DNA from: Rhodocytophaga rosea | GTDB lineage: Bacteria > Bacteroidota > Bacteroidia > Cytophagales > 172606-1 | Assembly (NCBI RefSeq): GCF_010119975.1 | Contig: NZ_CP048222.1 | Span: 6,114,501-6,178,500 of the forward strand | DNA length: 64,000 nt | Direction of reading: 5' to 3' | The notes under the pieces: generated by a model | Seen by the model: only the letters and a program-made list of their open reading frames with translations | Database searches by the model: none | Told to the model about the DNA's origin: nothing | Shown: piece after piece, positions 12,045 through 52,204 of the stretch | Position numbering within the stretch: position 1 is the first letter of the stretch | Layout of the letters: each line of letters starts with the position of its first letter | Made by a program: the position numbers and the translations under genes

Positions 12045-12164
12045 AGCAGGTGAAATTTGCCTGATTGGTTGCCGTTTTGGCTTTTAAGGGCAAGATTAAC
12101 TGCTGATCTATAAGCTTTTCTTCCTGCACTTTAGTATATTTAGAAAATATAGTATGGTGTGGTT

Positions 12165-32851: not shown

Positions 32852-32864
32852 TGTGGACAATAAA

Positions 32865-33820: not shown

Positions 33821-34102
33821 CTACGTTGTGAGCATCGGCTCCATATCCCTTTCCATTTCTGCATCCTTTAATGCCTTCTTTAGACGGGCTATTTCTGCTT
33901 CTTCAGGGGTTTGTTTTGGTTTTCCATGGCCAGGAAAACTTCCCTCCCTCTTGTCTAAAAACTCACGGCGCCAGCGATAAATCAATCCAATTTTGATATC
34001 CAATTCTTTAGCCAGATCTACTAAATTTTTTCTGCTCTTACTAAGTTCAACAGTCATTAGTTTGAACTCCTTGTCGAATTTTCTTCTTTGTCCCATTTTC
34101 AT
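33821..34102 (-). CDS. IS3 OrfA helix-turn-helix protein
   Basis: 93 residues. HTH of the IS3 group (Arg-Arg-Lys-Phe-Asp-Lys-Glu-Phe-Lys, then Ile-Gly-Leu-Ile-Tyr-Arg-Trp-Arg-Arg-Glu-Phe) followed by a leucine-zipper-like helix. OrfA normally joins OrfB by a -1 frameshift in the A-rich overlap; here the ORFs are separated by 95 bases and OrfA's last residues look unusual, so the fusion may not form. Confidence 0.8.
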   Translation of the reverse strand: MKMGQRRKFDKEFKLMTVELSKSRKNLVDLAKELDIKIGLIYRWRREFLDKREGSFPGHGKPKQTPEEAEIARLKKALKDAEMERDMEPMLTT

Positions 34103-34760: not shown

Positions 34761-37700
34761 CTAGTTTGCTTTCAATACCGGGTTTGTTATTCTCTCTTTC
34801 ATTTCTGCCACTATTTTATTCTGATGGCGCAATCTCCGGCAAAGTATTTTCATAATCTCACGGGTTACCTCAATACGGTCTGCCATAATTTCGTAGAAGG
34901 CATGCTGATCTAAGCGTAACAGAAAGGTATCTACAAGCGCTGTTACCGAAGCAGACCTGGGTTCAGTATCCAGCAATGAGAGTTCACCAAAAAAATCCCT
35001 GGTTTTAAGTTCTGCCAGGGTATGTTCTCCGTCATGCACCCGTACCGAACCTGAGTAAATGATGAACATACACGTACCCATGTCATCTTTTTTAACAATG
35101 CTTTCTCCAGCCTGCACTGGTACTTCTTTTAAAATAGAGGCCACATCTACCAGAATATCTTCTGAGGTTTCTCTAAAAATAGTAGTAGTTTTCAAGGCCA
35201 TTACTTTTTCAATGTCTAATAGTTGGGAATTCATAACTTGTTTGTTTTTCTCGTGGGTAGTTTCCTGCAATAAATGAATATCTTCAAAAGCCAGACTGGA
35301 CAAATAATTAGTATAGGTATCTGGATAAAAATCTTTTAATACCCATAAAGCAGTTTCTGCCACCAGTTTATTCGGGTGTGATACGGCCAGAATTGCCTCA
35401 TTGCTCATTTCATGAATACTCAGTTGCCTTACCACATATAAGGAAATCGCCTGTGTCCAGATATTCACCACTGGCACTTCCTGGCGGCTGATCAGTTTTT
35501 GTAAGTATACATGTAAACTCAATCTCTTTTGTGGGAAACGGGTATTGAAAATTTTCACCTGCTGGCTAATAGGGAAATCTTCCAGCAAGGGCAGAATAAT
35601 CGAACTCAGGTCTTTGGCGATTAACACATCGAGCACTTCAAAGGCATTGGCTTTTTTTTCCTTATTCGATAGGTGCATACTTTCCCACACTTGTAATACA
35701 TCATTGGAATTATAGATATAGGAGAGCAGTAAAACCAGGCGCTTTTTCAGATGAAGGAGTTCTATATGAAGGGCACTAATAAGCAGAGAGTAATGAGGCA
35801 ATTCAGCAGGAGTAGCAGAAAGGGTAATCACTTCTATACAGTTGAGAAACCAGCCGGCATCGGTTAGTTCCGCCTGAATACTGGTAAGTACTTTGTCTTT
35901 TTCTGAGGGACTAGGCTGATACCGGCATAGGGTAAGCGAATGCAGAATCTGGTTCCTTACTTCAATATTTTTAAAATAAAGCTTGTCTTTTAAAAGGGCA
36001 ATAGATTTGTTTCCACCCACTTTACCGCATACATAAATCAGCCGCCGCAGCCATACCGGGTTATAATCGGGTTTATTAAACTCAGTTTCGAAGAGCCCGG
36101 TTACTTCCTCACCAGTACTGATCAGGGCATTCATAGCCACCTCAAAAACCTGTGGAGAGGAAACGGCCCGTAACATAGAACCATACAACCTCGGATGCTT
36201 AATTTTGCCTGCTGCTTTCAGTGCTGCTTTGCGTACCACAACATCTTCATCTTCCATAAGTTTAAGTAAGGGATGATAAAAATGCTGGATACCTACTTCG
36301 CCAATCACACCTGCCGCAAAAGCCCGTTTTTCAGGGTCTTCAGAGAATACATACTCATTTAGATGCTGCCCGGCTAGAATAACGCCGCTAATCCCTCCGA
36401 AGCAAATCAAGCCCACCAAAGCGCCAGTCTGAATCAGTTTTTCTTTACTGTCGAGATAGGGACTTATTTCTTCTACCACTGTTTCCTCACCTAAAAAGCA
36501 ATATAACCGGATCGCATGTTTTTTAATAATAAGGTCCGGCTCTGACTCAATACGTTCTTTTACATGGCCTTGCAGAGACACCAGTTTTAAGCTTTCAATT
36601 TTTTTCAACACTTCCATACGTACCTCCGCAGAAGGATGTGCCATCAATTGCAGGAGTAATTCCGGGGCTTTACCGCTTTTACTTTTACACAGAATATCCA
36701 GGGCATACAAGACCTCACCCGGAAAAGGGCTATTAAGTTTAGCTTGTATCATAGCCAGCACATCCGGACTTTCCAGTTTCAGTGAACTTCCTTCCAGAAT
36801 GCGTTTCTTGAGCGCTACCTCCAGGGTATGGATATACGATTTATTGAGGTAAGAAATAGAGGCCACCCAGCCCACCAGAACCATTAGAAGTAGCACACTA
36901 AAGTGTACTAGTGTTAAGGAACTCAGCCAACCGAAACCTACTAATGCTACACCTGCTACACTAACGGCTATGGCTTCTATCACACCCAGGGTATCCAGCC
37001 CAAACATTTTGAGTTTTGTCTGCAAAGGCTGCAACAAGGAAATAAAAGTATTGCTGTATAAAGCTGCTTTGATGGTATCATTTACCAGCATAATTACTAC
37101 CCAAAACCAAGCTAACAAAAATGTATTACCGGAAAAACTGCTGCTGATGAGGCTAAAAATAGTAATGATACCCAAGGCGAAAGGAAGTGCAAAGAGGGCC
37201 ACTTGAATGCCGTATCGCCTTTGTATATAGCCATATAAAGAGATTTTAATAAAAAAGGCAATTAACTGCCCGGTACCCATAATAATACTAATAAAATAGG
37301 CTATTTCGGCCTGGCTGCTGAATTGCTCGTTTACCTGGCTCAAAAAGGCAAATTCAATAAAAATAAAAGTGAGGACGGCAAAGGAACAGGTAACGGAAAG
37401 GGCATAAATAAAATTAGTTTTGAAAAACCGCTGAACAATCCCCTTAGGTTTGATACTTAGTGTTTTTTGTGTTTCTGGTTCTTCAAGGTCAAAGGCTTTT
37501 TTGTTGGCGATAATGGAAATGAGAAATACCATAGCCAGCAGCAAGGCAACAGCCGAAAGCCATAATAGATTGATGGTTCCAATAACAGGAATCATTACTG
37601 AAGCCAGTAAATAGCCCAATACATTGCCTGGTACTTCCATAGAACTCACCAGTCCCAGGAGTCGTTTGCTTTGCCGTACATTAAACAGAATCAGATTTAA

Positions 37701-38099
37701 GCGGATAAATCCTGTACCAATATATGCCGACATGATGCGGTGCCAGACGATTAAACAGAAAACCAGCCATCCCACCTGTGCATAGGCAAGTCCAAACCTG
37801 AATAAGAGGACACATAGAAAAAAGACAATTATCTCTGCCAGAATTAATCGCTGGGCAGGATATACATTCGCCAGCCTGGAATACACTTCATTGATAAAAA
37901 GGAAAAGCAATCCACCAGTGATATATACATAGGGTAAGGTGGTGATCGGGTATTGGGTAAGAAATACGGCGCTGGCAGTAGTAAAAAATAAGGCAAGGGC
38001 TACTGTCTGGAAGAAGGAGTATAACATGAGCCTAAGCACAGTAGGTCCTTCTCCTTTCTGTAGATTTAACAGATCCTTAATTTTTTCTGAGTACTTCAT
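34761..38099 (-). CDS. NTT-like transporter fused to HEAT repeats and a cyclic-nucleotide-binding domain
   Basis: 1112 residues. About 12 membrane helices (1-420) resemble the ATP/ADP translocase (Npt/NTT) fold. Residues 440-960 form HEAT-type helical repeats (for example Leu-Met-Glu-Asp-Glu-Asp-Val-Val-Val-Arg-Lys-Ala-Ala-Leu). The end (about 980-1095) is a cNMP-binding domain; its phosphate cassette Phe-Gly-Glu-Leu-Ser-Leu-Leu-Asp-Thr-Glu-Pro-Arg-Ser-Ala keeps the Glu and Arg that hold the cyclic nucleotide. I infer that transport or a scaffold role is gated by a cyclic nucleotide. It is transcribed with the HD gene (28 bases upstream) and divergently from a cyclase. Confidence 0.85.
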   Translation of the reverse strand: MKYSEKIKDLLNLQKGEGPTVLRLMLYSFFQTVALALFFTTASAVFLTQYPITTLPYVYITGGLLFLFINEVYSRLANVYPAQRLILAEIIVFFLCVLLFRFGLAYAQVGWLVFCLIVWHRIMSAYIGTGFIRLNLILFNVRQSKRLLGLVSSMEVPGNVLGYLLASVMIPVIGTINLLWLSAVALLLAMVFLISIIANKKAFDLEEPETQKTLSIKPKGIVQRFFKTNFIYALSVTCSFAVLTFIFIEFAFLSQVNEQFSSQAEIAYFISIIMGTGQLIAFFIKISLYGYIQRRYGIQVALFALPFALGIITIFSLISSSFSGNTFLLAWFWVVIMLVNDTIKAALYSNTFISLLQPLQTKLKMFGLDTLGVIEAIAVSVAGVALVGFGWLSSLTLVHFSVLLLMVLVGWVASISYLNKSYIHTLEVALKKRILEGSSLKLESPDVLAMIQAKLNSPFPGEVLYALDILCKSKSGKAPELLLQLMAHPSAEVRMEVLKKIESLKLVSLQGHVKERIESEPDLIIKKHAIRLYCFLGEETVVEEISPYLDSKEKLIQTGALVGLICFGGISGVILAGQHLNEYVFSEDPEKRAFAAGVIGEVGIQHFYHPLLKLMEDEDVVVRKAALKAAGKIKHPRLYGSMLRAVSSPQVFEVAMNALISTGEEVTGLFETEFNKPDYNPVWLRRLIYVCGKVGGNKSIALLKDKLYFKNIEVRNQILHSLTLCRYQPSPSEKDKVLTSIQAELTDAGWFLNCIEVITLSATPAELPHYSLLISALHIELLHLKKRLVLLLSYIYNSNDVLQVWESMHLSNKEKKANAFEVLDVLIAKDLSSIILPLLEDFPISQQVKIFNTRFPQKRLSLHVYLQKLISRQEVPVVNIWTQAISLYVVRQLSIHEMSNEAILAVSHPNKLVAETALWVLKDFYPDTYTNYLSSLAFEDIHLLQETTHEKNKQVMNSQLLDIEKVMALKTTTIFRETSEDILVDVASILKEVPVQAGESIVKKDDMGTCMFIIYSGSVRVHDGEHTLAELKTRDFFGELSLLDTEPRSASVTALVDTFLLRLDQHAFYEIMADRIEVTREIMKILCRRLRHQNKIVAEMKERITNPVLKAN

Positions 38100-38127
38100 G
38101 TGCAGGCAGATGGTTTATCACAGGAAA

Positions 38128-38703
38128 TCAAAGCAGTTTCTGAAGCTCCAACAGGTGCTTATGCTTCCGGGCTTCCCGTTTCTCTTGGGCAGTTTTGGTA
38201 AAATAATGGTGTTGCTGAAAAAAATATACCTGTTTCTGGTTCCATTCTTCATCCGAAGAAATAATCCCAAATTCCATCCACTCCTGTTTAAGGGTTTGGG
38301 TAATGTCAAAAAAATCACTCCGGCCTAAATAATCCAGGTCAGCATCACACATAATCTGCTCCAGATGTGTCTGAGGATTTTGTGGGACTCTGGTTGCTAA
38401 AATGATGTGGCAGATAATTTTAATGTCATTAGTTAGATAATTGAAGCCAGGCAAAGTTTCCGAAGCGATCTGACAGGCAACTTCTTCATTGTTGTGATAC
38501 TGTACTATAAAACCAATATCATGATAAACAGCAGCCGTACGAAGCAGCACCAGGTCTTTTTCTTTCACATGCTCGCCTGAAGCCAGTTCCTCAACTGCCT
38601 GACACACATCCAGGGTATGGTGAATTCCATGATAATACAGGTTTTTGGGCAACTCATTTTCCAAGCGCTTCAGCACATACTCTCTGGCTTTCTGATAATG
38701 CAT
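38128..38703 (-). CDS. HD domain phosphohydrolase
   Basis: 191 residues. The HD metal set is visible: His in Tyr-His-Gly-Ile-His-His, the His-Asp pair in Val-Tyr-His-Asp-Ile-Gly, and a downstream Asp in Cys-Asp-Ala-Asp-Leu-Asp. Small HD proteins hydrolyse nucleotides or phosphomonoesters. Upstream of the NTT/cNMP fusion by 28 bases and divergent from a cyclase, it could act on a nucleotide signal, but nothing in the sequence proves the substrate. Confidence 0.8.
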   Translation of the reverse strand: MHYQKAREYVLKRLENELPKNLYYHGIHHTLDVCQAVEELASGEHVKEKDLVLLRTAAVYHDIGFIVQYHNNEEVACQIASETLPGFNYLTNDIKIICHIILATRVPQNPQTHLEQIMCDADLDYLGRSDFFDITQTLKQEWMEFGIISSDEEWNQKQVYFFQQHHYFTKTAQEKREARKHKHLLELQKLL

Positions 38704-38870
38704 AATCGGGGCATAATTCTACAATTAAACCTTTTTTAAGATAAAATGCAAAAGTTTGAAAACCGGGAATACTGATACTAATTATTTGCAATAAATAAGC
38801 ATAGCAGGCGGATTGAAAGTATCATTTTTTTTTATACATTCAGCAAAACAAACATACCTAAGGCAGACTA

Positions 38871-39917
38871 ATGGCAGCAAAAATACTTGTGGTTGATGAT
38901 GAGGCAGATTTGGAATCATTAATCAAACAGAAGTTCCGCAAGCAAATCCGGGAAAACCTCTATGAATTTGTATTTGCAGGCAATGGACACGAAGCCTTAG
39001 AGCAAATCAGAAGGCACCCGGATATTGATGTGGTGCTCTCAGATATCAACATGCCTGGTATGGATGGCCTCACCTTACTGGTAAAAATTCACGAATCGAG
39101 TCCACTAGTGAAGACGGTAATTGTTTCGGCCTATGGAGATATGGAAAACATCCGGACCGCTATGAACCGGGGTGCTTTCGATTTTGTATGCAAACCAGTC
39201 AATTTCGCTGACTTAGAAGTGACCATGCAAAAAACCATCGGTTATGTAAACCAGCTCCGGGAAACCATACGTGCCATTAAGGAGAACAATATCCTGCGCA
39301 TGTATGTAGACGAATCAGTACTTAAATTTATGACCCAGCAGCAAATGGAAACCTCCCTGTTTGCCAACGAAACCATCGAAGCCAGTGTTGCTTTTTTAGA
39401 TATCTGCGGATTTACAGCCATTACCGAAAATGCGCCAGCCAATACAGTGGTCTCACTCATCAACAAATATTTTGACCTGATGGTGAAGGAGATCATCGCA
39501 CAAGGAGGGTATGTAGATAAATTTATTGGCGATGCCGTAATGGCCGTTTTTCGGGGACAATATCATTTAGACCGGGCCATTGAAGCATCTCTAGCCGTTC
39601 GTAACCGCATTAATACGATTTCAGAACGGATACTGGATTCTCCGGAATATATACCCAAGGTTTCTATCGGAATTAATGCTGGTGAAATGGTATCAGGCAA
39701 TATTGGTTCTGCTTCTCTCAAAAGGTTGGATTATACGGTGATTGGCGATACCGTAAACCTGGCCCAACGCCTGCAAACAGTGGCTCAACCAGGACAAGTA
39801 GTAATATCTGAATCATCGTACCACAAAGTTAAAGAATCGTTCCGATGTGAGCTGGTAGGAGAGGTGAAACTAAAAAATAAAGCCAACGCAGTAGTGATCT
39901 ATGAGGTGCTGGAATAA
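38871..39917 (+). CDS. Response regulator fused to an adenylate cyclase
   Basis: 348 residues. The receiver domain (1-125) has the acidic pair at 10-11, phospho-acceptor Asp58 in Leu-Ser-Asp-Ile-Asn-Met-Pro-Gly and Lys107. A helical linker leads to a class III cyclase (about 168-345) with Phe-Leu-Asp-Ile-Cys-Gly-Phe, the adenine-selecting Lys217 in Asp-Lys-Phe-Ile-Gly-Asp and a Thr at the second selecting position, as in class IIIb adenylate cyclases. Unlike the two other cyclases here it looks fully canonical. The adjacent tandem kinases have no receiver of their own and are the likely phosphate donors. Confidence 0.92.
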   Translation: MAAKILVVDDEADLESLIKQKFRKQIRENLYEFVFAGNGHEALEQIRRHPDIDVVLSDINMPGMDGLTLLVKIHESSPLVKTVIVSAYGDMENIRTAMNRGAFDFVCKPVNFADLEVTMQKTIGYVNQLRETIRAIKENNILRMYVDESVLKFMTQQQMETSLFANETIEASVAFLDICGFTAITENAPANTVVSLINKYFDLMVKEIIAQGGYVDKFIGDAVMAVFRGQYHLDRAIEASLAVRNRINTISERILDSPEYIPKVSIGINAGEMVSGNIGSASLKRLDYTVIGDTVNLAQRLQTVAQPGQVVISESSYHKVKESFRCELVGEVKLKNKANAVVIYEVLE

Positions 39918-39964
39918 GCTTTGTAAACAGCGCTATTAAATAGATTCATGTTAAAAAACAGCCT

Positions 39965-40302
39965 GATTACATCCTGCTTTATTTGTTTCTGATAATGCCT
40001 TTTATGCCACCCAACAGAAGAAAACACAGCTCAACGGGCAATATCAGCCACAAGTAATTGTTTCGACAAAAGCCCTTAGTGAAAAAGTATGAATCCGGGT
40101 GAAAGACAATGGCACAGTCATTCCCGAAAGTATTAAAAGCAAAATATTCCAGCTTTTCTTTACCACCAAATCCACTGGAGAAGGCACCGGACTCGGCTTA
40201 TCTTTGAGCTATGATATTATTACCAAAGGCCATGGAGGTGAGTTGAAAATGGAAAGTATGGAAGGAGAGCACAGTGAATTTGTGATTCTGTTGCCGGTAT
40301 AA
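39965..40302 (+). pseudogene. Dead C-terminal fragment of a histidine kinase
   Basis: About 110 codons of an ATPase domain nearly identical in motif order to the following kinases: Asn-Ala-Phe-Tyr-Ala, Lys-Asp-Asn-Gly-Thr, Phe-Phe-Thr-Thr-Lys, Gly-Thr-Gly-Leu-Gly-Leu-Ser. The N-box region is cut off at its left and an in-frame TGA sits at 40090-40092, where the intact copies have the Val-Glu-Ile segment. It is the remains of a further member of the tandem array. Confidence 0.85.
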
Positions 40303-40343
40303 TGATTTTTGATTATAATTTACAAGCTACCACCTGTTCTGAC

Positions 40344-42563
40344 ATGAAACACCTTTTTCGCTTTTTGTTTCTTATTTGCCTGCCATTTTCTATGTATGGA
40401 CAAAATCCTGCTATTGACAGCCTGGACCGGCTGATTGTGAAAGCTACTACGGATACAGCCAGAATTAACCTGCGTATAAAGAAGCTGAATTACCTGAATG
40501 AGATCAACCTGGATTCAGCGATTCTAGAGGGGAAAAGAAACATTACTGATGCACAAAAGATAAATTACTCTCAGGGTGTAGCCAATACGCTGATACGGTT
40601 AGTTACCAGTTACTGTTACAAAGGAGAGTATGCTGCTGCTGCCCAGAGCCTGGAAATGGCAGAAAAAATATACCGCTCCCTACAAGACTCTACTGGCTTT
40701 GGTAACTTGTATTCCAGCTATGGAATGATGTATGGCATGCAAAGTAAGTACGACAGTTCTATTTATTATTATGAACGTGCCATTCAGGTTGCCAGCAATA
40801 TTAAAAACGAGTTTATGCTGAACCGTGCTTACCAGAATATAGCTATCCCCTATCAGATGCAATCTAATTTTTCTCCAGCTCTATCCTATCTGCAAAAAGC
40901 CCAGGATTATTACGAAAAGAAAAAAGATATAGGTTCGCAGACATATATTGCCATGAATATAGGTTTGATTTATAATAATTTAGGAGATATTAAACGGGCA
41001 GAGGAATCATTGATGAAAGCCGTTAGTCTTTCAAAAGCGGCAGGTACCCGGAATGTAGAACTTTATGCTTACTCCAACCTGGCCTCACTGTATGAAAAAC
41101 AGGAAAACCACCAGCGTTCCCATGAATTTGCCATGAAGGCCGCCCGGCTAGGGAAAGAAATGGGCGATACGGGTATTGAGGCCGCCAGCCTTGCCAAATC
41201 GGCCATTTCTCTAGCTCATCTGAATCAGTTAACAGAAGCAGAGAAAACAGCGAAACAATCCATTCTGACAGCCGATGTTTCCCATCAGCCCTATATTATC
41301 TATCAGGCTTATAATGCCCTTGGATTCATTCTGAAAACACAGGAAAAATATAGGGACGCCATCACACAATATGAAAAAGCATTTGATGCGATTAAGGAGG
41401 CCAAGGTATATGATGAGTACGTAGGTCAATCGTATAAAAATTTATCTGAGTCATATAGCGGCGCAGGCGATTATCCGAAAGCACTCGCAGCCTATAAAAA
41501 ATTTGCAGAAATAGCCGATTCGGTCCGGAGCCGGGAGAACATCCGCAAGGCGACCGAACTTAATATGAATTATGAATTTGACAAAAAACAACAACTTGCT
41601 ACCGCTGAACAGGAAAAAACAAATATAGAATCCCGGAACCGTCAGATCATGCTGGGCGTAGGATTGCTGTTAATGCTGATCATTGCTGTAATTGCCTTTT
41701 ATGCCTATTATACCAAACAAAAAGCAGCAACGCTGTTGAAGCGCCAGAAGGAAGAAGTAGAAGCAGCAATGACCGAGTTAAGAACTACCCAGGAACAACT
41801 GGTGCAGCGGGAGAAAATGGCCTCTTTAGGAGAACTTACGGCTGGCATTGCTCATGAAATTCAAAATCCCCTGAATTTTGTCAATAATTTTTCTGATGTA
41901 TCAGTGGAGTTAATAGAAGAACTGAAGGAGGAACTGGATTCTGGTAATATTACAGAAGTCAGGGCACTCTCAAATGATATCATGAAAAACCTGGAGAAGA
42001 TCTATCACCATGGTAAACGGGCAGATGCCATCGTAAAAAGTATGCTGCAGCATTCCAGAGTTTCGTCCGGAGGAAAACAACCTACTGATCTCAATGAGTT
42101 GGCTGATGAATACCTCCGGCTGGCGTATCATGGCTTGAGGGCCAAAGAAAAAGACTTCAATGCTGAATTTAAACTCGAAGCAGACCCGGCCGTAGGCTCA
42201 GTGAATGTGGTGCCCCAGGAAATCGGCAGAGTGCTTCTGAATCTGTTCAGCAATGCCTTTTATGCCGTCAATCAGAAAAAGCATCAGCTCAATGGGCAGT
42301 ATCAGCCACAGGTAATAGTTACTACAAAGAAACTGGCAGACAAGGTAGAAATCTGGGTGAAGGACAATGGCACAGGTATTCCGGAAGCAGTGAAAGACAA
42401 AATATTTCAGCCCTTTTTTACTACCAAGCCGACAGGAGAAGGCACCGGACTGGGTTTGTCACTTAGCTATGATATTATTACCAAAGGACATAGCGGAACA
42501 TTAAAAGTTGATTCGCAGGAAGGAGAATACTCAGAATTTACAATACTATTGCCAGCAAAATAA
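40344..42563 (+). CDS. TPR sensor histidine kinase, copy 1
   Basis: 739 residues from ATG 40344, chosen because a signal peptide follows directly (ends Met-Tyr-Gly-Gln); a frame start at 40302 precedes it. Seven or so TPR units lie in the periplasm (40-410), one membrane helix at about 433-456, a coiled coil, then HisKA with phospho-acceptor His504 in Ala-His-Glu-Ile-Gln-Asn-Pro-Leu, and HATPase_c (about 615-735: Asn-Ala-Phe-Tyr, Asp-Asn-Gly-Thr-Gly, Gly-Thr-Gly-Leu-Gly-Leu-Ser). There is no receiver or DNA-binding domain. The kinase half is shared with the three kinases downstream. Confidence 0.9.
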   Translation: MKHLFRFLFLICLPFSMYGQNPAIDSLDRLIVKATTDTARINLRIKKLNYLNEINLDSAILEGKRNITDAQKINYSQGVANTLIRLVTSYCYKGEYAAAAQSLEMAEKIYRSLQDSTGFGNLYSSYGMMYGMQSKYDSSIYYYERAIQVASNIKNEFMLNRAYQNIAIPYQMQSNFSPALSYLQKAQDYYEKKKDIGSQTYIAMNIGLIYNNLGDIKRAEESLMKAVSLSKAAGTRNVELYAYSNLASLYEKQENHQRSHEFAMKAARLGKEMGDTGIEAASLAKSAISLAHLNQLTEAEKTAKQSILTADVSHQPYIIYQAYNALGFILKTQEKYRDAITQYEKAFDAIKEAKVYDEYVGQSYKNLSESYSGAGDYPKALAAYKKFAEIADSVRSRENIRKATELNMNYEFDKKQQLATAEQEKTNIESRNRQIMLGVGLLLMLIIAVIAFYAYYTKQKAATLLKRQKEEVEAAMTELRTTQEQLVQREKMASLGELTAGIAHEIQNPLNFVNNFSDVSVELIEELKEELDSGNITEVRALSNDIMKNLEKIYHHGKRADAIVKSMLQHSRVSSGGKQPTDLNELADEYLRLAYHGLRAKEKDFNAEFKLEADPAVGSVNVVPQEIGRVLLNLFSNAFYAVNQKKHQLNGQYQPQVIVTTKKLADKVEIWVKDNGTGIPEAVKDKIFQPFFTTKPTGEGTGLGLSLSYDIITKGHSGTLKVDSQEGEYSEFTILLPAK

Positions 42564-42615
42564 GCACAGCCAGCGCTATTTCAAATTGAATTCACAATGC
42601 TACACCTTTATCCCC

Positions 42616-44838
42616 ATGAAATACCTGGCTTTCTTATTTTCTCTTGTAATTTGTGTATATGGGTCAACATTTGGGCAAACCCCTGCCATTGATAGCCTGG
42701 ACCGGCTGATTCTGAAAGTCACTACTGATACAGCGAGGATCAAACTTCTATTAAAGAAAGCAGATTTCCTGGTTGAAGTTAATCTGGACTCAGCCATCAA
42801 TGTGAGTAAAAGGACCATTCAGGCGGCAGAAAAAATAAATTATAAAAAAGGCGAAGCCAATGCCAGGCTTGGTTTAGCTACCGGTTATAATTTTAAAGGG
42901 GAGTATAAGGCGGCTTCCCTGAATTTGAAAATAGCTGAAGAGATATTCCTCTCCTTACAGGATTCTACAGGCCTGGGAACTTTGTATGGCAACTATGGCA
43001 TGATGTACGGCATGCAAAGCAAGTATGATAGTTCCATTTATTATTATGAGCGTGCTATTCAGGTTGCTGAGGGTTTACATGATGATAGATTATTAAATAA
43101 TGCCTATAAGAACATTGCCATTTCCTATTACATGCAATCGAATTTTACTCCGGCCATGTTGTATATGCAAAAATCCCTGGTCTATTATGAAAAACAAAAA
43201 AATATTCGTTCACAAGCCAATACTTTGATGAATATGGGCCTGATCTATGATGAAATGGGAGATAAGGTACGGGCCGAAGAGTCGTTGATGAAATCAATTA
43301 CACTTTCAAAAGCAGCAGGTGTGCGCAATGTAGAACTCTATGCCTATTCTAACCTGGCTTCCCTGTATGAAAGCAAAAAAAATTACCAGCTCTCTTATGA
43401 ATATGCCATGAAAGCAGCCGTATTAGGCCGGGAAATGGGTGATAACGGCATCGAAGCCGCCAGCTTGTCTAAAGCTGTCATTTCCCTGGCCAAACTCAAT
43501 AAGTTAGGGGAAGCCGAAAAACTCGCCAGGCAGGCTATCCTTACAGCTGATCTAGCCAAACAACCGATGAATAGCTACCAGGCATATGCTGCCATGGGGC
43601 TTGTACTCAAGTTACAGAATAAATTTGACAGATCCATTGAAGCCTATAGCAAAGCATTTGAGGTGATGCAGGAATCGGATATATATGATGAATCCATTGG
43701 CGAAACATATTTTAATTTATCAGAGTCTTACAGCAAGGTAGGCGATTATCAAAAAGCGCTTACAGCGTATCAGAAGTATGCCGAAATAGCCGATTCGGTC
43801 AGAAGCCAGGAGAACATACGCAAGGCTACTGAAATCAATATGAACTATGAATTTGAGAAGAAACAACAACTCGCTGCTGCCGAACAGGAACGTAAAAATG
43901 TAGAAACCAGAAACAGGCAACTGGTATTATCAGTCGGACTGGGATTAACCATCCTCGTGGCACTCATTGCCTTCTATGCTTTCCGTACCAAACTAAAAGC
44001 AAATACCTTACTGCAGCGCCAGAAAGAAGAAATTGAAACCGCTATGACTGAATTAAGAACTACCCAGGCTCAACTGATCCAGAAAGAAAAAATGGCTTCT
44101 TTAGGAGAACTCACAGCCGGTATTGCCCATGAAATCCAAAATCCACTCAACTTTGTCAATAACTTTGCAGAAGTGAGCAATGAACTCCTGGAAGAATTAC
44201 AACAGGAACTAATGACTACCCAAAACGACGAAACACTTGTCCTTACTTCCAGCATTAAAACTAATCTGTCAAAAATTGTACACCACGGTAAACGGGCGGA
44301 TGCCATCGTTAAAAGTATGTTGCAGCATTCCAGCATGAGCAGCGGAGAAAAGCAATTATTAGATATGAATGTTTTAATAGATGAATATTTAAGACTTGCT
44401 TACCATGGACTTAAAGCAAAAGAAAAAGACTTCAATGCGGATTTAATTACTGACTTGGATGTAAGCATAGACAGAATCAAGGTAGTACCACAGGAGATAG
44501 GCAGAGTTTTATTGAATCTGTTCAACAATGCTTTTTATGCCACCCAACAGAAAAAACAGCAACTCAACGGACAATATCAACCTCAAGTGACAGTTACAAC
44601 AAAAGCTGTCAGGAATAAGGTAGAAATCCGGGTGAAAGACAATGGTACAGGCATTCCGGAAGCAGTGAAAGACAAAATATTTCAGCCCTTTTTTACGACC
44701 AAGCCGACAGGGGAAGGCACCGGACTGGGTTTATCACTCAGTTATGACATCATTACCAAAGGTCATGGAGGAGAGTTGAAAGTAGAGAGCAAGGAAGATG
44801 AGTTTACAGAAATGATTATATGCTTGCCTGCAGTTTGA
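42616..44838 (+). CDS. TPR sensor histidine kinase, copy 2
   Basis: 741 residues from ATG 42616, where the signal peptide begins (it ends Thr-Phe-Gly-Gln). It has the same layout as copy 1: periplasmic TPRs, one membrane helix (about 435-455), phospho-acceptor His505 and HATPase_c. It begins 52 bases after copy 1, so they are probably cotranscribed. Identity with copy 1 is high throughout, including the start (Pro-Ala-Ile-Asp-Ser-Leu-Asp-Arg-Leu), showing a tandem duplication. Confidence 0.9.
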   Translation: MKYLAFLFSLVICVYGSTFGQTPAIDSLDRLILKVTTDTARIKLLLKKADFLVEVNLDSAINVSKRTIQAAEKINYKKGEANARLGLATGYNFKGEYKAASLNLKIAEEIFLSLQDSTGLGTLYGNYGMMYGMQSKYDSSIYYYERAIQVAEGLHDDRLLNNAYKNIAISYYMQSNFTPAMLYMQKSLVYYEKQKNIRSQANTLMNMGLIYDEMGDKVRAEESLMKSITLSKAAGVRNVELYAYSNLASLYESKKNYQLSYEYAMKAAVLGREMGDNGIEAASLSKAVISLAKLNKLGEAEKLARQAILTADLAKQPMNSYQAYAAMGLVLKLQNKFDRSIEAYSKAFEVMQESDIYDESIGETYFNLSESYSKVGDYQKALTAYQKYAEIADSVRSQENIRKATEINMNYEFEKKQQLAAAEQERKNVETRNRQLVLSVGLGLTILVALIAFYAFRTKLKANTLLQRQKEEIETAMTELRTTQAQLIQKEKMASLGELTAGIAHEIQNPLNFVNNFAEVSNELLEELQQELMTTQNDETLVLTSSIKTNLSKIVHHGKRADAIVKSMLQHSSMSSGEKQLLDMNVLIDEYLRLAYHGLKAKEKDFNADLITDLDVSIDRIKVVPQEIGRVLLNLFNNAFYATQQKKQQLNGQYQPQVTVTTKAVRNKVEIRVKDNGTGIPEAVKDKIFQPFFTTKPTGEGTGLGLSLSYDIITKGHGGELKVESKEDEFTEMIICLPAV

Positions 44839-44914
44839 TTTCTTTTTTGTAACTTTTACAAAGCCGGCTATTCAGATAATTATTAAATTTTCCACCTTCT
44901 CTCCAACCAGGTGC

Positions 44915-47900
44915 ATGAAGTATTTATTTTATCTAGTTCATCTTAGCTTTTTTTTATGGGTAAGCTATAGACTACCTGCTACTGCTCAAAACCAGAGAGT
45001 GAATTTTGAGCATCTCACTATTGAAGATGGGCTTTCACATAACTTTGTAATGTATGTAATGCAGGACCGCAAAGGGTTTTTGTGGTTTGGTACAGGCAGC
45101 GGTATGGATAAATACGATGGCTACCGCTTTACCAATTATAAGTTTGATCCTCAGGACTCAACCACTGTGCCCAAAAATCAGGTGTTTAAGATGTGGGAAG
45201 ATAGTGAGGGAATGATTTGGATAGGTTCTTCTGAAGTTACCAGCAGATTTGATCCTCGCACAGAGACATTTACTCGCTTAGAAAAAAGTGCAGACAATCC
45301 CTATGCCTTTAAATTCGCCCAATCTTTTAATGAGGATGCAGAAGGAAATATATGGGTAACAGGGAGTTTTGAAGGAGAAATCAGGCAAATAGACCGGAAA
45401 ACAGGCAGGTTTTCTGCCACTAATTATGCAGAAATGTTAGCCTCTGTGTCTGGCAACGATTATAAGCGGCAGGCAGTCTTACATTTTATATATAAAGATA
45501 GAAAAGGTGTGTTGTGGTTTGGTAGCCCAAATGGCTTACATCGTCTCACGCTAACACCTCAGGGTAAAAATAAACCCTCTACAGTAAGCTTTACCCATTT
45601 TCGTCTGGCTCCTGAGGACTCTGCTACTTCAGGTCAAAAAAATAACCCGACTGTAAATGAAGTGGGTAATAATATCACTGGGATATATGAAGATAGCAAA
45701 GGAGTTTTTTGGGTACTTTCACGAAATGGTAAATTATATACCTTCCAGCCTAAAACCGGAAAATTTACCCAATTTCAGACAGATAATTTTACACCTATAA
45801 AAACCTATAGTTTATTGCCAAATTGCTTTGCAGAAGACCTGGAGGGTAATTTATGGATCAGTTCATATAATGGACTTTATAAATTGAATAGCGACCTTTC
45901 ACAAATTACTTCTTTTTTGAATGATTCAATTGATCCAGGAAGTTTAACCCATAATAATGTTCCTGCGCTGATTGTAGATAATTCTGGTATACTTTGGATT
46001 GCTACTCAAAATGGAGTAAATAAACTTGACCCTCATATAAAACGTTTTGAAGTATACGCTCACAATCCCCAAGACCCTCATTCCTTAAGCAATAATAATA
46101 TATCCGCTATCTGCGAAGATAAACAAGGCTTGGTATGGGTAGGCACTTTGAAAGCAGGGTTAAATGTACTCAATAAAAGTACCGGTCAGTTTACCCACTA
46201 TCAGAACAATTCTGCAGATGATAAAAGCTTGCGCAGTGATGAAGTTGGTGCTATCCTGGAGGATAGAAATGGCAATCTATGGGTAGGAAATTATACCACA
46301 CTATCGCTGTTTAACCGGGCCACCAACGATTTTACTCATTTTACATTAAATCATCTTTTTTTAGAAGATAATGATGGAACTTCTATTTTCTCTATGTATG
46401 AAGCGCGTGATGGTTTGCTATGGTTAGGTACAAACAATGGAATGCTCAGCTTTGATCCTAAAACTGGCAAAACAGTAAGCTATCCATATGATCCTGATCG
46501 CCCGGAACGCATGACAGATTGGTGGGCTTTAACTATTTTAGAAGATAGCAGGGGAAACTTATGGATAGGAGCCGGCAGCCAGGCGCTCAACCGGCTGGAT
46601 AGAAAAACCGGTGCATTCACTCATTATTCTTATGACTATCATAAGCGTGGTAGCATTAGTTCAAACACGGTGCAGAGTATATACGAGGACACAAAAGGAA
46701 ACCTGTGGTTTGGCACTGGGGAAGGCGGTTTGTGCCTATTTGATTATGTTACAGAAACATTTACTGCATATACGGAAAAACATGGTTTGTCAGGCAACTC
46801 CGTATTTTCAATTCTAGATGACAGTGAAGGAAATTTATGGCTGGGTACCAATAATGGTCTCTCCAAATTTTCTACAATTACCAAAATATTTACTAACTAC
46901 GATGCATCTGATGGGTTAAAAAGTAAAATGTTTAATACCTTGTATACAGAGGCCGCAGCTTTTAAAGGAAAAGATGGTATCTTATACTTTGGTGGAAATA
47001 ATGGCCTCACTGTCTTTAATCCTGTAACTATTGACGCCAATACCTTTGTGCCTCCTGTAGTAATTACTCAATTCAGTCTGTTTGATAAACCTCTGGCCGG
47101 AAAACACCAAGCAAAAGAAATTGAATTGGCGTACGATGAAAACTTCTTTTCAGTAGAATTTGCTGCCTTAAATTTTACTAATACCAACAAAAATCAATAT
47201 GCCTATCAGCTAGAAGGAGTGGATAAAGATTGGGTATATACCGGGTCCAGACGATTTGCCAGCTATACAGATATTGGTCCAGGCAACTATACATTTCGGG
47301 TAAGAGGCTCCAATAATGATGGGATATGGAATGAACAGGCAACTACATTAACAATTATTATTCATCCACCCTGGTGGCGTACTACATGGGCTTATGGATT
47401 TTATTTTCTGTGTTTTCTGGCTGTCGTATTTGCAGTGGATCGCTATCAGCGACACAGACTAATTGCCAAAGAAAGAGAAAAAGCACAGGAGAAGGAACTG
47501 GCGCAAGCCAAAGAAATTGAAAAAGCATATTATGAACTCAAACGTACCCAAACCCAGCTAATTCAATCAGAAAAAATGGCTTCGTTGGGTGAACTCACCG
47601 CTGGCATCGCTCATGAAATCCAAAACCCACTTAACTTTGTTAATAATTTTTCAGAAGTATCTACTGAGTTAATTCAAGAATTGAAAGAAGAAATTAGCCA
47701 TGACCACAAACAGGATGCCCTGGCTTTAGCGGATGATCTGACACAAAACCTTTCTAAGATTCAACACCACGGTAAACGGGCTGATTCAATTGTAAAAGGT
47801 ATGCTGCAACATTCTAGGGTAACATCCAGAGAAAAGCAGTTAATAGATTTGAATGCTTTGGTAGATGAATACCTGCGCTTAGCCTATCATGGCTTGCGAG

Positions 47901-48322
47901 CCAAGGAGAAAGATTTCAACGCAGAGTTTAGATTCGATGCTGATCCTGCTGTTGGCTCAGTAAGTGTGGTGCCCCAGGAAATCGGCAGAGTGCTTCTGAA
48001 TCTGTTCAATAATGCCTTTTATGCCGTCAATCAGAAAAAGCAACAGCCCAATGAGCCGTACCAGCCACAGGTAATAGTCACTACAAAGAAACTAGGAGAT
48101 AAGGTAGAAATAAGGGTGAAAGATAATGGCACAGGCATTCCGGTAGGGATCAGGCAAAAGATTTTTCAACCCTTTTTCACCACCAAGCCAACTGGCGAAG
48201 GTACAGGATTAGGCTTATCACTCAGCTATGACATTATTACCAAAGGTCATGGGGGAAAACTCAACGTGGAAAGTGTAGAAGGAGAGTTTACAGAAATGAT
48301 TATTGAATTGCCAAAAGATTAA
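44915..48322 (+). CDS. Propeller sensor histidine kinase, copy 1
   Basis: 1135 residues. Signal peptide (ends Ala-Thr-Ala-Gln), a long set of two-component propeller repeats (about 30-720; recurring Gly-Leu-Trp-Phe-Gly and Asn-Leu-Trp-Ile-Gly), a Y_Y_Y domain (735-810), a membrane helix (825-845), HisKA with His900, and HATPase_c. This sensor type is typical of hybrid systems for glycan sensing, but here the receiver and AraC output domains are absent. Phosphate must go to a separate receiver, such as those at 38871 or 51812. Confidence 0.92.
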   Translation: MKYLFYLVHLSFFLWVSYRLPATAQNQRVNFEHLTIEDGLSHNFVMYVMQDRKGFLWFGTGSGMDKYDGYRFTNYKFDPQDSTTVPKNQVFKMWEDSEGMIWIGSSEVTSRFDPRTETFTRLEKSADNPYAFKFAQSFNEDAEGNIWVTGSFEGEIRQIDRKTGRFSATNYAEMLASVSGNDYKRQAVLHFIYKDRKGVLWFGSPNGLHRLTLTPQGKNKPSTVSFTHFRLAPEDSATSGQKNNPTVNEVGNNITGIYEDSKGVFWVLSRNGKLYTFQPKTGKFTQFQTDNFTPIKTYSLLPNCFAEDLEGNLWISSYNGLYKLNSDLSQITSFLNDSIDPGSLTHNNVPALIVDNSGILWIATQNGVNKLDPHIKRFEVYAHNPQDPHSLSNNNISAICEDKQGLVWVGTLKAGLNVLNKSTGQFTHYQNNSADDKSLRSDEVGAILEDRNGNLWVGNYTTLSLFNRATNDFTHFTLNHLFLEDNDGTSIFSMYEARDGLLWLGTNNGMLSFDPKTGKTVSYPYDPDRPERMTDWWALTILEDSRGNLWIGAGSQALNRLDRKTGAFTHYSYDYHKRGSISSNTVQSIYEDTKGNLWFGTGEGGLCLFDYVTETFTAYTEKHGLSGNSVFSILDDSEGNLWLGTNNGLSKFSTITKIFTNYDASDGLKSKMFNTLYTEAAAFKGKDGILYFGGNNGLTVFNPVTIDANTFVPPVVITQFSLFDKPLAGKHQAKEIELAYDENFFSVEFAALNFTNTNKNQYAYQLEGVDKDWVYTGSRRFASYTDIGPGNYTFRVRGSNNDGIWNEQATTLTIIIHPPWWRTTWAYGFYFLCFLAVVFAVDRYQRHRLIAKEREKAQEKELAQAKEIEKAYYELKRTQTQLIQSEKMASLGELTAGIAHEIQNPLNFVNNFSEVSTELIQELKEEISHDHKQDALALADDLTQNLSKIQHHGKRADSIVKGMLQHSRVTSREKQLIDLNALVDEYLRLAYHGLRAKEKDFNAEFRFDADPAVGSVSVVPQEIGRVLLNLFNNAFYAVNQKKQQPNEPYQPQVIVTTKKLGDKVEIRVKDNGTGIPVGIRQKIFQPFFTTKPTGEGTGLGLSLSYDIITKGHGGKLNVESVEGEFTEMIIELPKD

Positions 48323-48398
48323 TTTCTTTTTGTGATTTTTAAGAGCGGCAAATTATATACTATTTTAAGCTTTTCCCATCGGCTCAATTCCTAAGTGC

Positions 48399-51300
48399 AT
48401 GAATTGTTTTTTTCGAATAACCATACTTAGCTTTTTCCTCTGCTTATGCTACAACCTGCCTGGCATCTCCCAAGGCCAGAAAGTGAATTTTGAGCACCTC
48501 AACATAGAACAAGGGCTTTCGCATAATTATGTCACATCCGTGATTCAGGATCGGAAGGGTTTTCTGTGGTTTGGTACCACCAACGGTTTGAACAAATACG
48601 ATGGGTACCAGTTCACGCATTATACATTTGATCCTAACGATACCACCTCACTTTCCAAAAATATAGTTTTGACCCTATGGGAAGACAGCGAAGGGATAAT
48701 ATGGATAGGAACCAATGAAGATATTTGTAAGTTTGACCCCCGTACTGAAAAATTTACCCGTTTAGAAAAGAGTGACTCTAATCCTTATGCTTTTAGATTC
48801 GCTCAATCGTTTGCAGAAGATACAGAAGGCAATATATGGATAGCAGGAAGTTTTGATGGGCAATTACGGCGGGTAAATAGGAAGACAGGCAAGTTCTCGG
48901 CTATTAATTATGCCTCAGCCCTAGGACATAAATTGGGACATGAATCTGGGAATACATCTTTGTTTAGCCTGATCACTATTTGCAAGGATAAAGCAGGAAC
49001 GCTTTGGATGGGCAGTTCATCTGGCTTGCACCGGCTTACACTCACTTCTCAGGGGACAGGTAAAGCTTCCAAGGTAAATTTTACCCATTATCGCCATAAC
49101 CCGGCTGATCCATTCAGTATAAGCCCGGGAGGCGTAGCTGGGATCTTTGAAGATCACAAAGGTGTTTTATGGCTAATAACTCAAGAGGGTTTTATAAATG
49201 CTTTTGATCATACATCCGGCAGATTTACCCACTACTTGCCAGATCCACACAAACCAGCTGTTATCGGTAGAATTTTAGAAACTGGTATTACTGAAGATTT
49301 AGCCGGTAACTTATGGATAGGCACTTTGAGTGGACTATATTCACTTGATAAGGAACGTAAAAAAATTACGAATTATATGCATGACCCGTTTAATCCGTCA
49401 AGCCTGAGCAATAACTTTGTTACTTCCGTTTTAGCAGATCAATCTGGCATTTTATGGATTGCTACACTAGATGGAATAAATAAATCAGATCCCCATCTGA
49501 AGCCTTTCAGTTTGTACTGCCATGATCCGCTCAACCCTAATTCTTTAAGTCACAACAAGGTAAAAGCTATTTGTGAAGACAAAGAAGGAATAGTTTGGGT
49601 AGGCACCCTGGGAGGAGGCTTGAATGCTTTAAACAAAACAACAGGTGAATTTACCCATTACCGGCACAACCAAAAAGACACAGGCAGTTTGGGTAATGAT
49701 TTAGTTACGGCTATTCTGGAAGACAGGGAGGGTAACCTATGGATTGGAAATGGGGAAGTACTCTCCCGTTTCGACTATAAGAAGAAAAAATTTATTCATT
49801 ACCTCTTACAGCATCCATTCCAGAAGGGCTCTGCAAACCTGCCAATTTTTACTATGTACGAGGATCGGCAGGGAATTTTTTGGCTGGGAACAAACAATGG
49901 GTTGATAAAATTTGACCCGAAATCGGGCAAAACAATAAGTTACCCATATGACCCTAACCATCCGGAGAAAATTAGCGATTGGGTAGTATTATGCATACAG
50001 GAGGATAAAGAAGGTTATTTATGGCTGGGCCACGGGAGCATGGGGCTCGATAGGTTTAATCCAAAAACCGGTAAGGTTATTAAATATGTACAAGATGGCC
50101 AGAAACAGGGTAGTATCAGCACAAATACAGTAGTTAGTTTTTATGAAGATTTCAAAGGAAACTTATGGATTGGAACCGATGAGGGAGGGCTATGCCAATT
50201 TAATTATTCTACAGAAACATTCACTACATTTACCGTTGAGCAGGGACTGGCAGGAAATTCAGTTTACTCCATTTTGGAAGACAACGAAGCGAACCTTTGG
50301 TTAGGTACCAATAACGGTCTTTCTAAGTTCTCTCCGGCAAGTAAAATATTTACCAATTACGATGCCGCCGACGGATTACAAAGCAACCTGTTTACTCCTT
50401 TGATGTATGAGGCTGTTGCCTTTAAAGAAAAAGACGGCACTTTGTATTTTGGTGGGAACAACGGCTTTAGTGCCTTCAACCCGGCAGCGGTTCATGCCAA
50501 TACCTATGTGCCCCCTGTGGTTATCACGCAGTTCAGCCTATTTGACAAACCGCTAGCCGGAAAACAGGAAGCCAAAGAAATCGAACTGGCTTATGATGAA
50601 AACTTTTTTTCTGTTGAGTTTGCCGCCTTAAACTATACCAACAGCGAAAAAAACCAATATGCCTATCAGTTGCAAGGAATAGACAAAGACTGGGTAAATA
50701 CCGGATCGAGGCGACTCGCTAGTTATACAGATATTGGCCCTGGACACTATACCTTCCGGGTAAAAGGCTCCAATAATGATGGGGTCTGGAATCAGAAAGC
50801 CACCACTCTAACAATTATTATTCATCCTCCCTGGTGGCGTACTCCCTGGGCCTATGGTTTTTATTTTCTGTGTTTGCTAACTGCCATATTTGCATCGGAT
50901 CGCTATCAGCGCAAGCGGTTAATTGCCAAAGAAAGAGAGAAAGCCAGGGAAAAAGAACTAATGCAAGCCAAGGAAATTGAGAAAGCTTATCATGAACTCA
51001 AACGAACCCAAACCCAGCTGATTCAATCCGAGAAAATGGCCTCTTTAGGGGAGTTAACGGCTGGTATTGCCCATGAAATCCAGAATCCCCTGAATTTTGT
51101 CAATAATTTTTCGGAGGTATCTGAAGAGCTTTGTAGTGAATTGGAGCAAGAAGCTAAAAATGGCCATACTGAGGGAGTTATCGCTATAAGTGCCGATCTG
51201 AAGCAAAACCTATCTAAAATTCATCACCACGGCAAACGGGCAGATTCTATTGTTAAAGGAATGCTGCAGCACTCCAGGTCTTCCTCCGGAGAAAAACAAC

Positions 51301-51794
51301 CTACTGATATCAATGCTTTGGTAGATGAATACATTCGTTTAGCCTATCATGGCCTGAGAGCCAAAGAAAAAGACTTCAACGCTGATTTCAAACTGGAAGC
51401 CGATCCTGCGGTAGGCAAAGTAAATATAGTGCCACAGGAGATAGGCAGGGTATTGCTAAACCTGTTCAACAATGCCTTTTATGCGACTCAGCAGAAAAAG
51501 CACCAGCTCAATGGATTTTATCAACCACAGGTGCTTGTTTCGACGAAAGCTTTCGCAGATAAAGTGGAAATCCGAATCAGAGACAATGGTACTGGTATTT
51601 CGGAAAATGTAAAAAGTAAGATTTTTCAGCCTTTTTTTACTACTAAGCCTACCGGAGAAGGCACCGGATTAGGATTATCCCTTAGTTATGATATTATTAC
51701 TAAAGGACATGGCGGTGAACTAACGGTTCAATCTCAGGAAGGGGAATTTACAGAGTTTATTATTCATCTTACTAAGTCAGCGAAAGCAATGTAA
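48399..51794 (+). CDS. Propeller sensor histidine kinase, copy 2
   Basis: 1131 residues, same layout as copy 1: signal peptide (ends Gly-Ile-Ser-Gln), propeller repeats, Y_Y_Y, membrane helix, His892 and HATPase_c. It begins 76 bases after copy 1, and both are preceded by GTGC just before the ATG. The propellers have diverged more than the kinase halves, suggesting different ligands feeding one output. It ends 17 bases from the convergent receiver gene. Confidence 0.92.
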   Translation: MNCFFRITILSFFLCLCYNLPGISQGQKVNFEHLNIEQGLSHNYVTSVIQDRKGFLWFGTTNGLNKYDGYQFTHYTFDPNDTTSLSKNIVLTLWEDSEGIIWIGTNEDICKFDPRTEKFTRLEKSDSNPYAFRFAQSFAEDTEGNIWIAGSFDGQLRRVNRKTGKFSAINYASALGHKLGHESGNTSLFSLITICKDKAGTLWMGSSSGLHRLTLTSQGTGKASKVNFTHYRHNPADPFSISPGGVAGIFEDHKGVLWLITQEGFINAFDHTSGRFTHYLPDPHKPAVIGRILETGITEDLAGNLWIGTLSGLYSLDKERKKITNYMHDPFNPSSLSNNFVTSVLADQSGILWIATLDGINKSDPHLKPFSLYCHDPLNPNSLSHNKVKAICEDKEGIVWVGTLGGGLNALNKTTGEFTHYRHNQKDTGSLGNDLVTAILEDREGNLWIGNGEVLSRFDYKKKKFIHYLLQHPFQKGSANLPIFTMYEDRQGIFWLGTNNGLIKFDPKSGKTISYPYDPNHPEKISDWVVLCIQEDKEGYLWLGHGSMGLDRFNPKTGKVIKYVQDGQKQGSISTNTVVSFYEDFKGNLWIGTDEGGLCQFNYSTETFTTFTVEQGLAGNSVYSILEDNEANLWLGTNNGLSKFSPASKIFTNYDAADGLQSNLFTPLMYEAVAFKEKDGTLYFGGNNGFSAFNPAAVHANTYVPPVVITQFSLFDKPLAGKQEAKEIELAYDENFFSVEFAALNYTNSEKNQYAYQLQGIDKDWVNTGSRRLASYTDIGPGHYTFRVKGSNNDGVWNQKATTLTIIIHPPWWRTPWAYGFYFLCLLTAIFASDRYQRKRLIAKEREKAREKELMQAKEIEKAYHELKRTQTQLIQSEKMASLGELTAGIAHEIQNPLNFVNNFSEVSEELCSELEQEAKNGHTEGVIAISADLKQNLSKIHHHGKRADSIVKGMLQHSRSSSGEKQPTDINALVDEYIRLAYHGLRAKEKDFNADFKLEADPAVGKVNIVPQEIGRVLLNLFNNAFYATQQKKHQLNGFYQPQVLVSTKAFADKVEIRIRDNGTGISENVKSKIFQPFFTTKPTGEGTGLGLSLSYDIITKGHGGELTVQSQEGEFTEFIIHLTKSAKAM

Positions 51795-51811
51795 CCCAGC
51801 AATACCTAAGA

Positions 51812-52204
51812 TTACCCAGCGTTTTTCTGAACTTCTAATTGTTTGAGCTTTTCTTTGAGGTCGTTAAAATTCAAAGGCTTGGCCAGAAAGTCGTTAGCAC
51901 CATAACTGATAGATTGCCGATAGCTCTGCTCATCTCCATAGGCTGTGATCATCATAATTACCGGAGGTGGGGAGGCAAAACTGATACGTATTCGCTTTAA
52001 TAATTCCAGGCCGCTCATGCCAGGCATGTTGATATCAGATAAGATCAACACTACCTCTGAGGCATGTTTTTCCAGATAGGACAAAGCCTGTTCACCAGAA
52101 TGGGCAAATGCAAATGTTAATTCACCGGAGCGGATTTCTTTGCGGAACCGTTGCTCAAAAAGAGGTTGAATATCCGGTTCATCGTCTACAACTAGTATCT
52201 GCAT
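51812..52204 (-). CDS. Single-domain response regulator
   Basis: 130 residues, receiver only: acidic pair at 7-8, phospho-acceptor Asp57 in Leu-Ser-Asp-Ile-Asn-Met-Pro-Gly and a Lys near 109 in Leu-Ala-Lys-Pro-Leu-Asn-Phe. It has no output domain and could pass phosphate on, or compete with the cyclase-linked receiver, which has a similar N-terminus (Phe-Arg-Lys, Glu-or-Gln, Ile-Arg after the acidic pair). Convergent with the propeller kinase. Confidence 0.9.
   Translation of the reverse strand: MQILVVDDEPDIQPLFEQRFRKEIRSGELTFAFAHSGEQALSYLEKHASEVVLILSDINMPGMSGLELLKRIRISFASPPPVIMMITAYGDEQSYRQSISYGANDFLAKPLNFNDLKEKLKQLEVQKNAG

Follow-up and report, generated by a model that had tools for sequence, protein, structure and literature searches.

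Positions 34761-52204 of a 64,000-nucleotide stretch of Rhodocytophaga rosea DNA (contig NZ_CP048222.1, positions 6,114,501 to 6,178,500; hereafter the window) encode eight intact genes and the remnant of a kinase gene, as judged from open reading frames (ORFs), translations and Pfam scans. We consider it probable that these genes form a two-component-controlled cyclic AMP (cAMP) circuit with a nucleotide transporter as its main reader. The proposal is built on sequence, fold or comparative evidence for the gene set, its conserved linkage, the intactness of catalytic and binding residues, and an NTT fold. Several membrane kinases with different sensors would phosphorylate two targets: the receiver of a soluble class III cyclase, and a single-domain receiver whose gene in relatives lies immediately upstream of the cyclase gene. 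The activated cyclase would produce cAMP, presumably rather than another cyclic nucleoside monophosphate (cNMP), and binding of cAMP to the C-terminal domain of a membrane NTT-HEAT protein would alter nucleotide transport in one direction or the other. The HD protein may hydrolyse the messenger and so reset the system, and the lone receiver may act as a phosphate sink or competitor.

Gene content of the locus

The features of the locus are as follows.

34761..38099, minus strand: NTT-type transporter/HEAT/cNMP-binding fusion, 1112 aa, with ten hydrophobic segments within residues 1-420
34878..35120, minus strand: cNMP-binding domain with phosphate cassette GELSLLDTEPRSA (Pfam and cassette pattern)
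38128..38703, minus strand: HD phosphohydrolase, fold resembling class I phosphodiesterases
38871..39917, plus strand: receiver and class III nucleotidyl cyclase, 348 aa (Pfam 3.4e-24 per domain)
39991..40299, plus strand: remnant of a fifth kinase, end of the catalytic domain, with in-frame stop
40302..42563, plus strand: histidine kinase, TPR sensor 1 (Pfam, boxes)
42613..44838, plus strand: histidine kinase, TPR sensor 2 (ORF open from 42508; start placed by eye at a signal-peptide-like Met)
44915..48322, plus strand: histidine kinase, Reg_prop/Y_Y_Y propeller sensor 1 (Pfam, boxes)
48399..51794, plus strand: histidine kinase, Reg_prop/Y_Y_Y propeller sensor 2 (Pfam, boxes)
51812..52204, minus strand: single-domain receiver (Pfam 1.2e-24)

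The HD and NTT genes lie 28 bp apart on the minus strand, divergent from the receiver-cyclase gene. A first-pass annotation of this DNA had described the same gene content, including a dead kinase, and the remnant matches that description: it is 73-78% identical to the last ~100 residues of the neighbouring kinases, lacks HisKA and has one in-frame stop.

Conservation of the locus in related genomes

Two genome sets, each including the R. rosea genome, were searched. Among 98 genomes, 38 had an NTT match (E <=1e-30) and 37 a receiver-cyclase match (E <=1e-25); among 390 genomes of the same order, the numbers were 175 (E <=1e-20) and 152 (E <=1e-60). The best of the matches listed provided a neighbourhood sample of 115 orthologous receiver-cyclase loci (15 + 100) from the same order, some sharing a genome and the window not counted, with 36 lower-ranked listed places falling outside it. 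The lone receiver lies at most 250 bp upstream of the cyclase in 110 of these 115 loci, and a kinase of the same class is found upstream on the same strand in 98 (within 700 bp in 90). An NTT gene is nearby in 78 of the 115 (within 700 bp in 57), a proportion that probably overstates the order-wide rate because the 36 places left out rank lowest and the 115 were drawn only among the matches listed. HD genes occur in 55 loci, directly behind the cyclase in 25, so that 88 loci have an NTT or HD gene, 45 have both and 27 have neither. By our own arithmetic (1-4 copies per ~6 Mb), chance alone would place an NTT gene no further than 9.4 kb away in some 0.3-1.3% of loci. On this point the first-pass annotation, which had staked its proposal on co-occurrence in relatives, is not refuted.

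The NTT gene is downstream on the opposite strand in 59 of the 78 loci, upstream on the same strand in 13, downstream on the same strand in four and upstream on the opposite strand in two; its retention is therefore not merely that of one inherited gene order. The kinase-receiver-cyclase order also occurs in other Bacteroidota. Among 36 named orthologs (Spirosoma, Hymenobacter, Mucilaginibacter, Flavobacterium, Algoriphagus and others), at least four of which are loci already among the 115, the receiver accompanies the cyclase in 33, a kinase in 35, an NTT gene in 10 and an HD gene in 14. Alphaproteobacterial loci, at 38-41% identity, have the kinase upstream in 7/7 cases, with the lone receiver between in 5/7.

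The NTT-HEAT-cNMP fusion

Phosphate cassettes of cAMP-binding cNMP domains have the form Gly-Glu ... Arg-Ser-Ala, and the cassette Glu and Arg that the first-pass annotation had pointed out in the fusion are present. Every one of the 82 linked rows in which a domain was detectable, corresponding to 78 distinct proteins with the window's included, has the canonical form (GE..RSA). The other 33 rows contain 22 distinct unlinked fusions: three are fully canonical, five have Asp for Glu and keep the Arg, and 14 are without the Arg; two of the 14 are the window genome's own paralogs, and one of the 14, L300, has an Arg one position further on. Excluded from this count were L056, which is identical to L088 (at a contig end, canonical), four second views of the same protein and six linked rows, as well as L102 and L047, which have no detectable cNMP domain, and L202, L218 and L230, which encode it in an ORF of its own. 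In three further linked loci, GE and RSA are present in a cNMP domain encoded by the ORF next to the NTT gene.

Matches to PF00027 that pass the cassette pattern were confined to the linked fusion in three genomes: 1/30 in the window genome (30 of 31 examined), 1/21 in G074 and 1/5 in G222. By this pattern, the linked fusion is the only putative canonical cassette reader found among the cNMP-fold domains examined in these genomes; the pattern is a text match based on the cassette rule and would miss unusual binding sites. Elsewhere in the window genome, at ~6.92 Mb (L302:2382-5472), tandem ORFs of 477 and 469 aa have an N-terminal cNMP-like domain and a kinase-type C-terminus, and neither cNMP-like domain passes the pattern. 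ORFs of 409-467 aa in G014, G036, G051, G064 and G077 contain a cNMP domain 41-49% identical to that of the fusion.

The transporter part is assigned by sequence and fold to the NTT (ATP/ADP translocase) family, and nucleotide transport itself is a prediction from this assignment. A profile of 19 transporter parts matches AtNTT1 (4.2e-14) and Chlamydia NTT1 (3.9e-13), with no other PDB sequence below E 1, and fold comparison also identifies an NTT. The NTT label of the first-pass annotation, which Pfam does not give, is thereby upheld; the Pfam MFS_1 match to the transporter part was below its cut-off.

In an NTT tree (53 chosen sequences, FastTree, midpoint root), the fusions of the window, L086 and L103 group together (support 1.0), and this clade is joined (0.999) to 15 unlinked fusions that have no canonical cassette. 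Linked fusions of the Spirosoma and Hymenobacter types form a separate group, and both linked groups are well supported. At L103, the HD, NTT and kinase genes and a non-orthologous (32%) receiver-cyclase gene follow one another on a single strand, separated by 2, 12 and ~260 bp. NTT and cyclase distances correlate (r 0.82, 75 linked pairs), which shared descent alone could explain.

Cyclase, receivers and kinases

The cyclase residues D177, K217, D221, T289, N296 and R300 are invariant in an alignment of 16 orthologs. In a larger set of 153 rows (144 distinct sequences), the Lys motif occurs in 153/153 and the Thr in 151/153, being unplaced in two. The cyclase thereby has the two metal-binding Asp, the Asn and the Arg of a class III adenylate cyclase and a base-site Lys/Thr pair of the class IIIb type, and a Lys/Thr base site in class III cyclases fits ATP; the first-pass annotation had correctly noted this Lys and Thr. 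Elsewhere in the window, a second class III cyclase (29211-30308) has three hydrophobic segments and two further genome matches of 377-379 aa, and the ORF at 12159-14201 encodes a class III cyclase domain followed by TPR repeats.

Residues D9, D10, D58 and K108 of the cyclase receiver are likewise invariant in 16 orthologs, and the equivalent acidic pair, phospho-Asp and Lys are present by eye in the lone receiver. The latter shares 45% identity with the cyclase receiver and 74% with its L086 counterpart, which is encoded immediately upstream of the cyclase there. The first receiver helix decides kinase choice, and the two receiver types share a first-helix motif (Q-[K/R/Q]-aromatic-[R/K]-x-x-[I/F/L/V]-[R/K]) that is found in 116/116 cyclase receivers and 107/112 lone receivers. 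It occurs in 0/7 of the other own-genome receivers readable by script, which were taken from the best of 85 receiver matches, and by eye it is also absent from an eighth, L010, that the script could not place. Receivers 56-62% identical to the cyclase receiver are also encoded at L105:9499-10848 and L072-L078, in ORFs of 425-452 aa with no full cyclase match; the L105 ORF has a SpoIIE output.

All four intact kinases have H, N, G1 and G2 boxes, HisKA and HATPase domains and no receiver (Pfam and sequence). Their transmitters are 70-76% identical to one another despite the TPR and propeller sensors. In the rest of the 8.98-Mb genome, the best other kinase reaches 42% identity over most of the transmitter, and one 61-residue piece reaches 56%; the 42% kinase adjoins a second, paralogous receiver-cyclase (33%) at 3.26 Mb. 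Local duplication accounts only partially for the expansion of kinases. Within multi-kinase loci, the nearest neighbour belongs to the same locus for 25 of 134 kinases (shuffled control: mean 1.4, largest 6), and in the window the nearest relative of each kinase is the neighbour with the same sensor. Pfam scans of the eight genes detected neither an HPt domain nor a kinase-borne receiver, the remaining genome not having been searched for HPt. On these grounds, the possible phosphorelay of the first-pass annotation is not supported in the strict sense of the term.

The HD protein

Over 186/191 residues, at 17% identity, the HD protein has a fold like that of the class I phosphodiesterases PDE10A and PDE7A. 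It is much shorter than these enzymes and lacks one His of the class I motif. H25, H29, H61, D62 and D122 are invariant in 13 homologs.

Other HD genes occur near receiver-cyclases in different forms. Directly behind the cyclase, the HD domain is fused to a YitT/DUF2179 membrane protein in L115:11434-12894 and L122:11403-12890, and HD ORFs of 488-497 aa occupy this position in L276, L279 and L283. In Flavihumibacter soli (L130:2-1258), a PycTM Pycsar effector domain is joined to an HD-like domain that lacks the HD dyad, ~9 kb from a receiver-cyclase.

Counter-evidence and alternative explanations

Besides the likely inflation of the linkage rate, several observations weigh against the proposed circuit. 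The stretches of 37/115 loci contain no NTT gene, nor do those of 26/36 named orthologs, all ten NTT loci among the latter being from Spirosoma or Hymenobacter; the cyclase would therefore have other readers there. The two NTT groups fit two independent links but, viewed without a root, also a single ancient link followed by losses. No ortholog at E 1e-60 was seen in seven other genomes of the family (G001-G007), of which two are 72-75% complete. Because of this, and because a DDE transposase gene (31901-32872) lies near the NTT gene, the window copy may have been acquired horizontally; ORFs at 32865-33725 and 33821-34102 resemble an insertion-sequence pair by eye. The lone receiver of the window genome is ~12 kb from the cyclase and on the opposite strand. 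In the transporter part, Pfam TLC (PF03219) gave no match at E 10 in the R. rosea genome or in seven transporter parts, and the Lys-Glu pair of solved NTTs is not kept in the profile-aligned stretch, which makes the substrate uncertain. L336 of G074, counted as non-canonical, is near-canonical (Glu kept, Arg-Ser then Asp). For the HD protein, a generic bacterial HD hydrolase matches the fold as closely as the phosphodiesterases do, and its sequence matches phosphodiesterases weakly (PDE9A, E ~0.03; PDEase_I in 1/13 members, E 0.061). The off-switch role suggested in the first-pass annotation draws on the class I-like fold, which supports a generic HD hydrolase to the same degree.

The changed Lys-Glu pair in the profile alignment would also fit an NTT part that no longer transports, leaving the fusion as a membrane cAMP receptor whose HEAT arm recruits partners and whose output is scaffolding. 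We regard this as unlikely, although identity to L220 is 25% for the complete fusion and 72% for the cyclase, a sign of much faster divergence of the fusion, and quite different cNMP proteins are found at other loci. Three loci of family f19 that have no NTT gene carry cNMP-patatin (NTE-like) genes near the receiver-cyclase (L099:4547-6325, L295:550-2328, L297:4020-5792), and cNMP-patatin is a possible alternative reader there. Less likely still is that kinase, receivers and cyclase are the functional unit, with NTT and HD genes as frequent but independent neighbours and cAMP acting elsewhere. The 37 loci without an NTT gene are compatible with such independence, as is the kinase-receiver-cyclase order in other Bacteroidota and in five of the seven alphaproteobacterial loci. 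However, the cassette is kept in 78/78 distinct linked fusions, no other domain passes the pattern in the three genomes, and linkage appears in two NTT groups and in variable gene order.

A Pycsar-like defence, with a cyclic pyrimidine made on infection and the cNMP protein as membrane effector, seems very improbable. With PADLOC profiles, the cyclase scores up to 80.7 bits against PycC and the cNMP domain 65.3 bits against PycTIR, but such scores are expected from the shared cyclase and cNMP folds. The HD-protein relative fused to PycTM in L130 has an HD part without the dyad, the Lys/Thr base site is of the kind that fits ATP, and a sensor kinase is upstream in 98/115 loci. For the two-component cAMP circuit, the path outlined by the first-pass annotation, from kinases through the receiver-cyclase and a cyclic nucleotide to the fusion, keeps the support of conserved linkage, the shared receiver-helix motif, cassette retention in linked fusions and the lack of another canonical reader in three genomes, with the strict phosphorelay removed.

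Relation to known systems and implications

The sperm exchanger SLC9C1 works like the proposed cAMP-controlled transporter and, like the fusion, has a C-terminal cNMP domain. It belongs to an unrelated transporter family (Foldseek TM-scores ~0.1, no shared overall fold) and is not a relative. For the cyclase, the nearest comparison is CyaC, in which the kinase is part of the same protein. By the title of Kasahara and Ohmori (1999, cited in PMC1183210), an adenylate cyclase of this type is activated by autophosphorylation and phosphotransfer. In the locus described here, unlike CyaC, the kinases are several separate proteins, the receiver-cyclase is soluble, and there is a lone receiver besides.

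Fusions of NTT, HEAT and cyclic nucleotide-binding domains (NTT-HEAT-cNBD) have already been described by Major, Embley and Williams (2017, PMC5381601). In the sections of that paper considered here, they range from cyanobacteria to oomycetes, have the same domain order as here, show fusion and fission of the cNMP domain and are said to have unknown functions; the authors propose that NTT-mediated ATP uptake might be tuned by cAMP made by adenylate cyclase. Those sections describe no cyclase, kinase or HD partner. The fusions studied here differ in their linkage to a two-component cyclase and in a cassette that linked copies keep and most unlinked ones have lost. Our search of open-licence papers found none on the assembly or naming the fusion's cyclase partner. 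The first-pass annotation likewise knew of no such described system; the fusion and its suggested tie to cAMP were already in print. The assembly is real and conserved, and combines known parts (NTT-HEAT-cNBD fusions and CyaC-type cyclases) with an unusual proposed output.

The clustering of sensors, cyclase, possible phosphodiesterase and cNMP-transporter suggests that cAMP acts on the transporter rather than mainly on genes. Tentatively, and with less confidence than in the circuit itself, we propose that cAMP in these Bacteroidota could be a dedicated, kinase-controlled NTT switch and not mainly a means of gene regulation, with the fusion as sole canonical receptor and the cyclase and phosphodiesterase encoded alongside. 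The kinase-receiver-cyclase set would be a general module in which lineages swap the cNMP reader (a transporter, a patatin lipase or others). The locus names a likely signal source, off-switch and set of sensors, and so makes cAMP tuning of nucleotide transport directly testable. If true, cAMP signalling in the Bacteroidota would include a pathway with a transporter at its end in place of a CRP-type regulator, a bacterial counterpart to the cAMP-controlled exchangers of animals.

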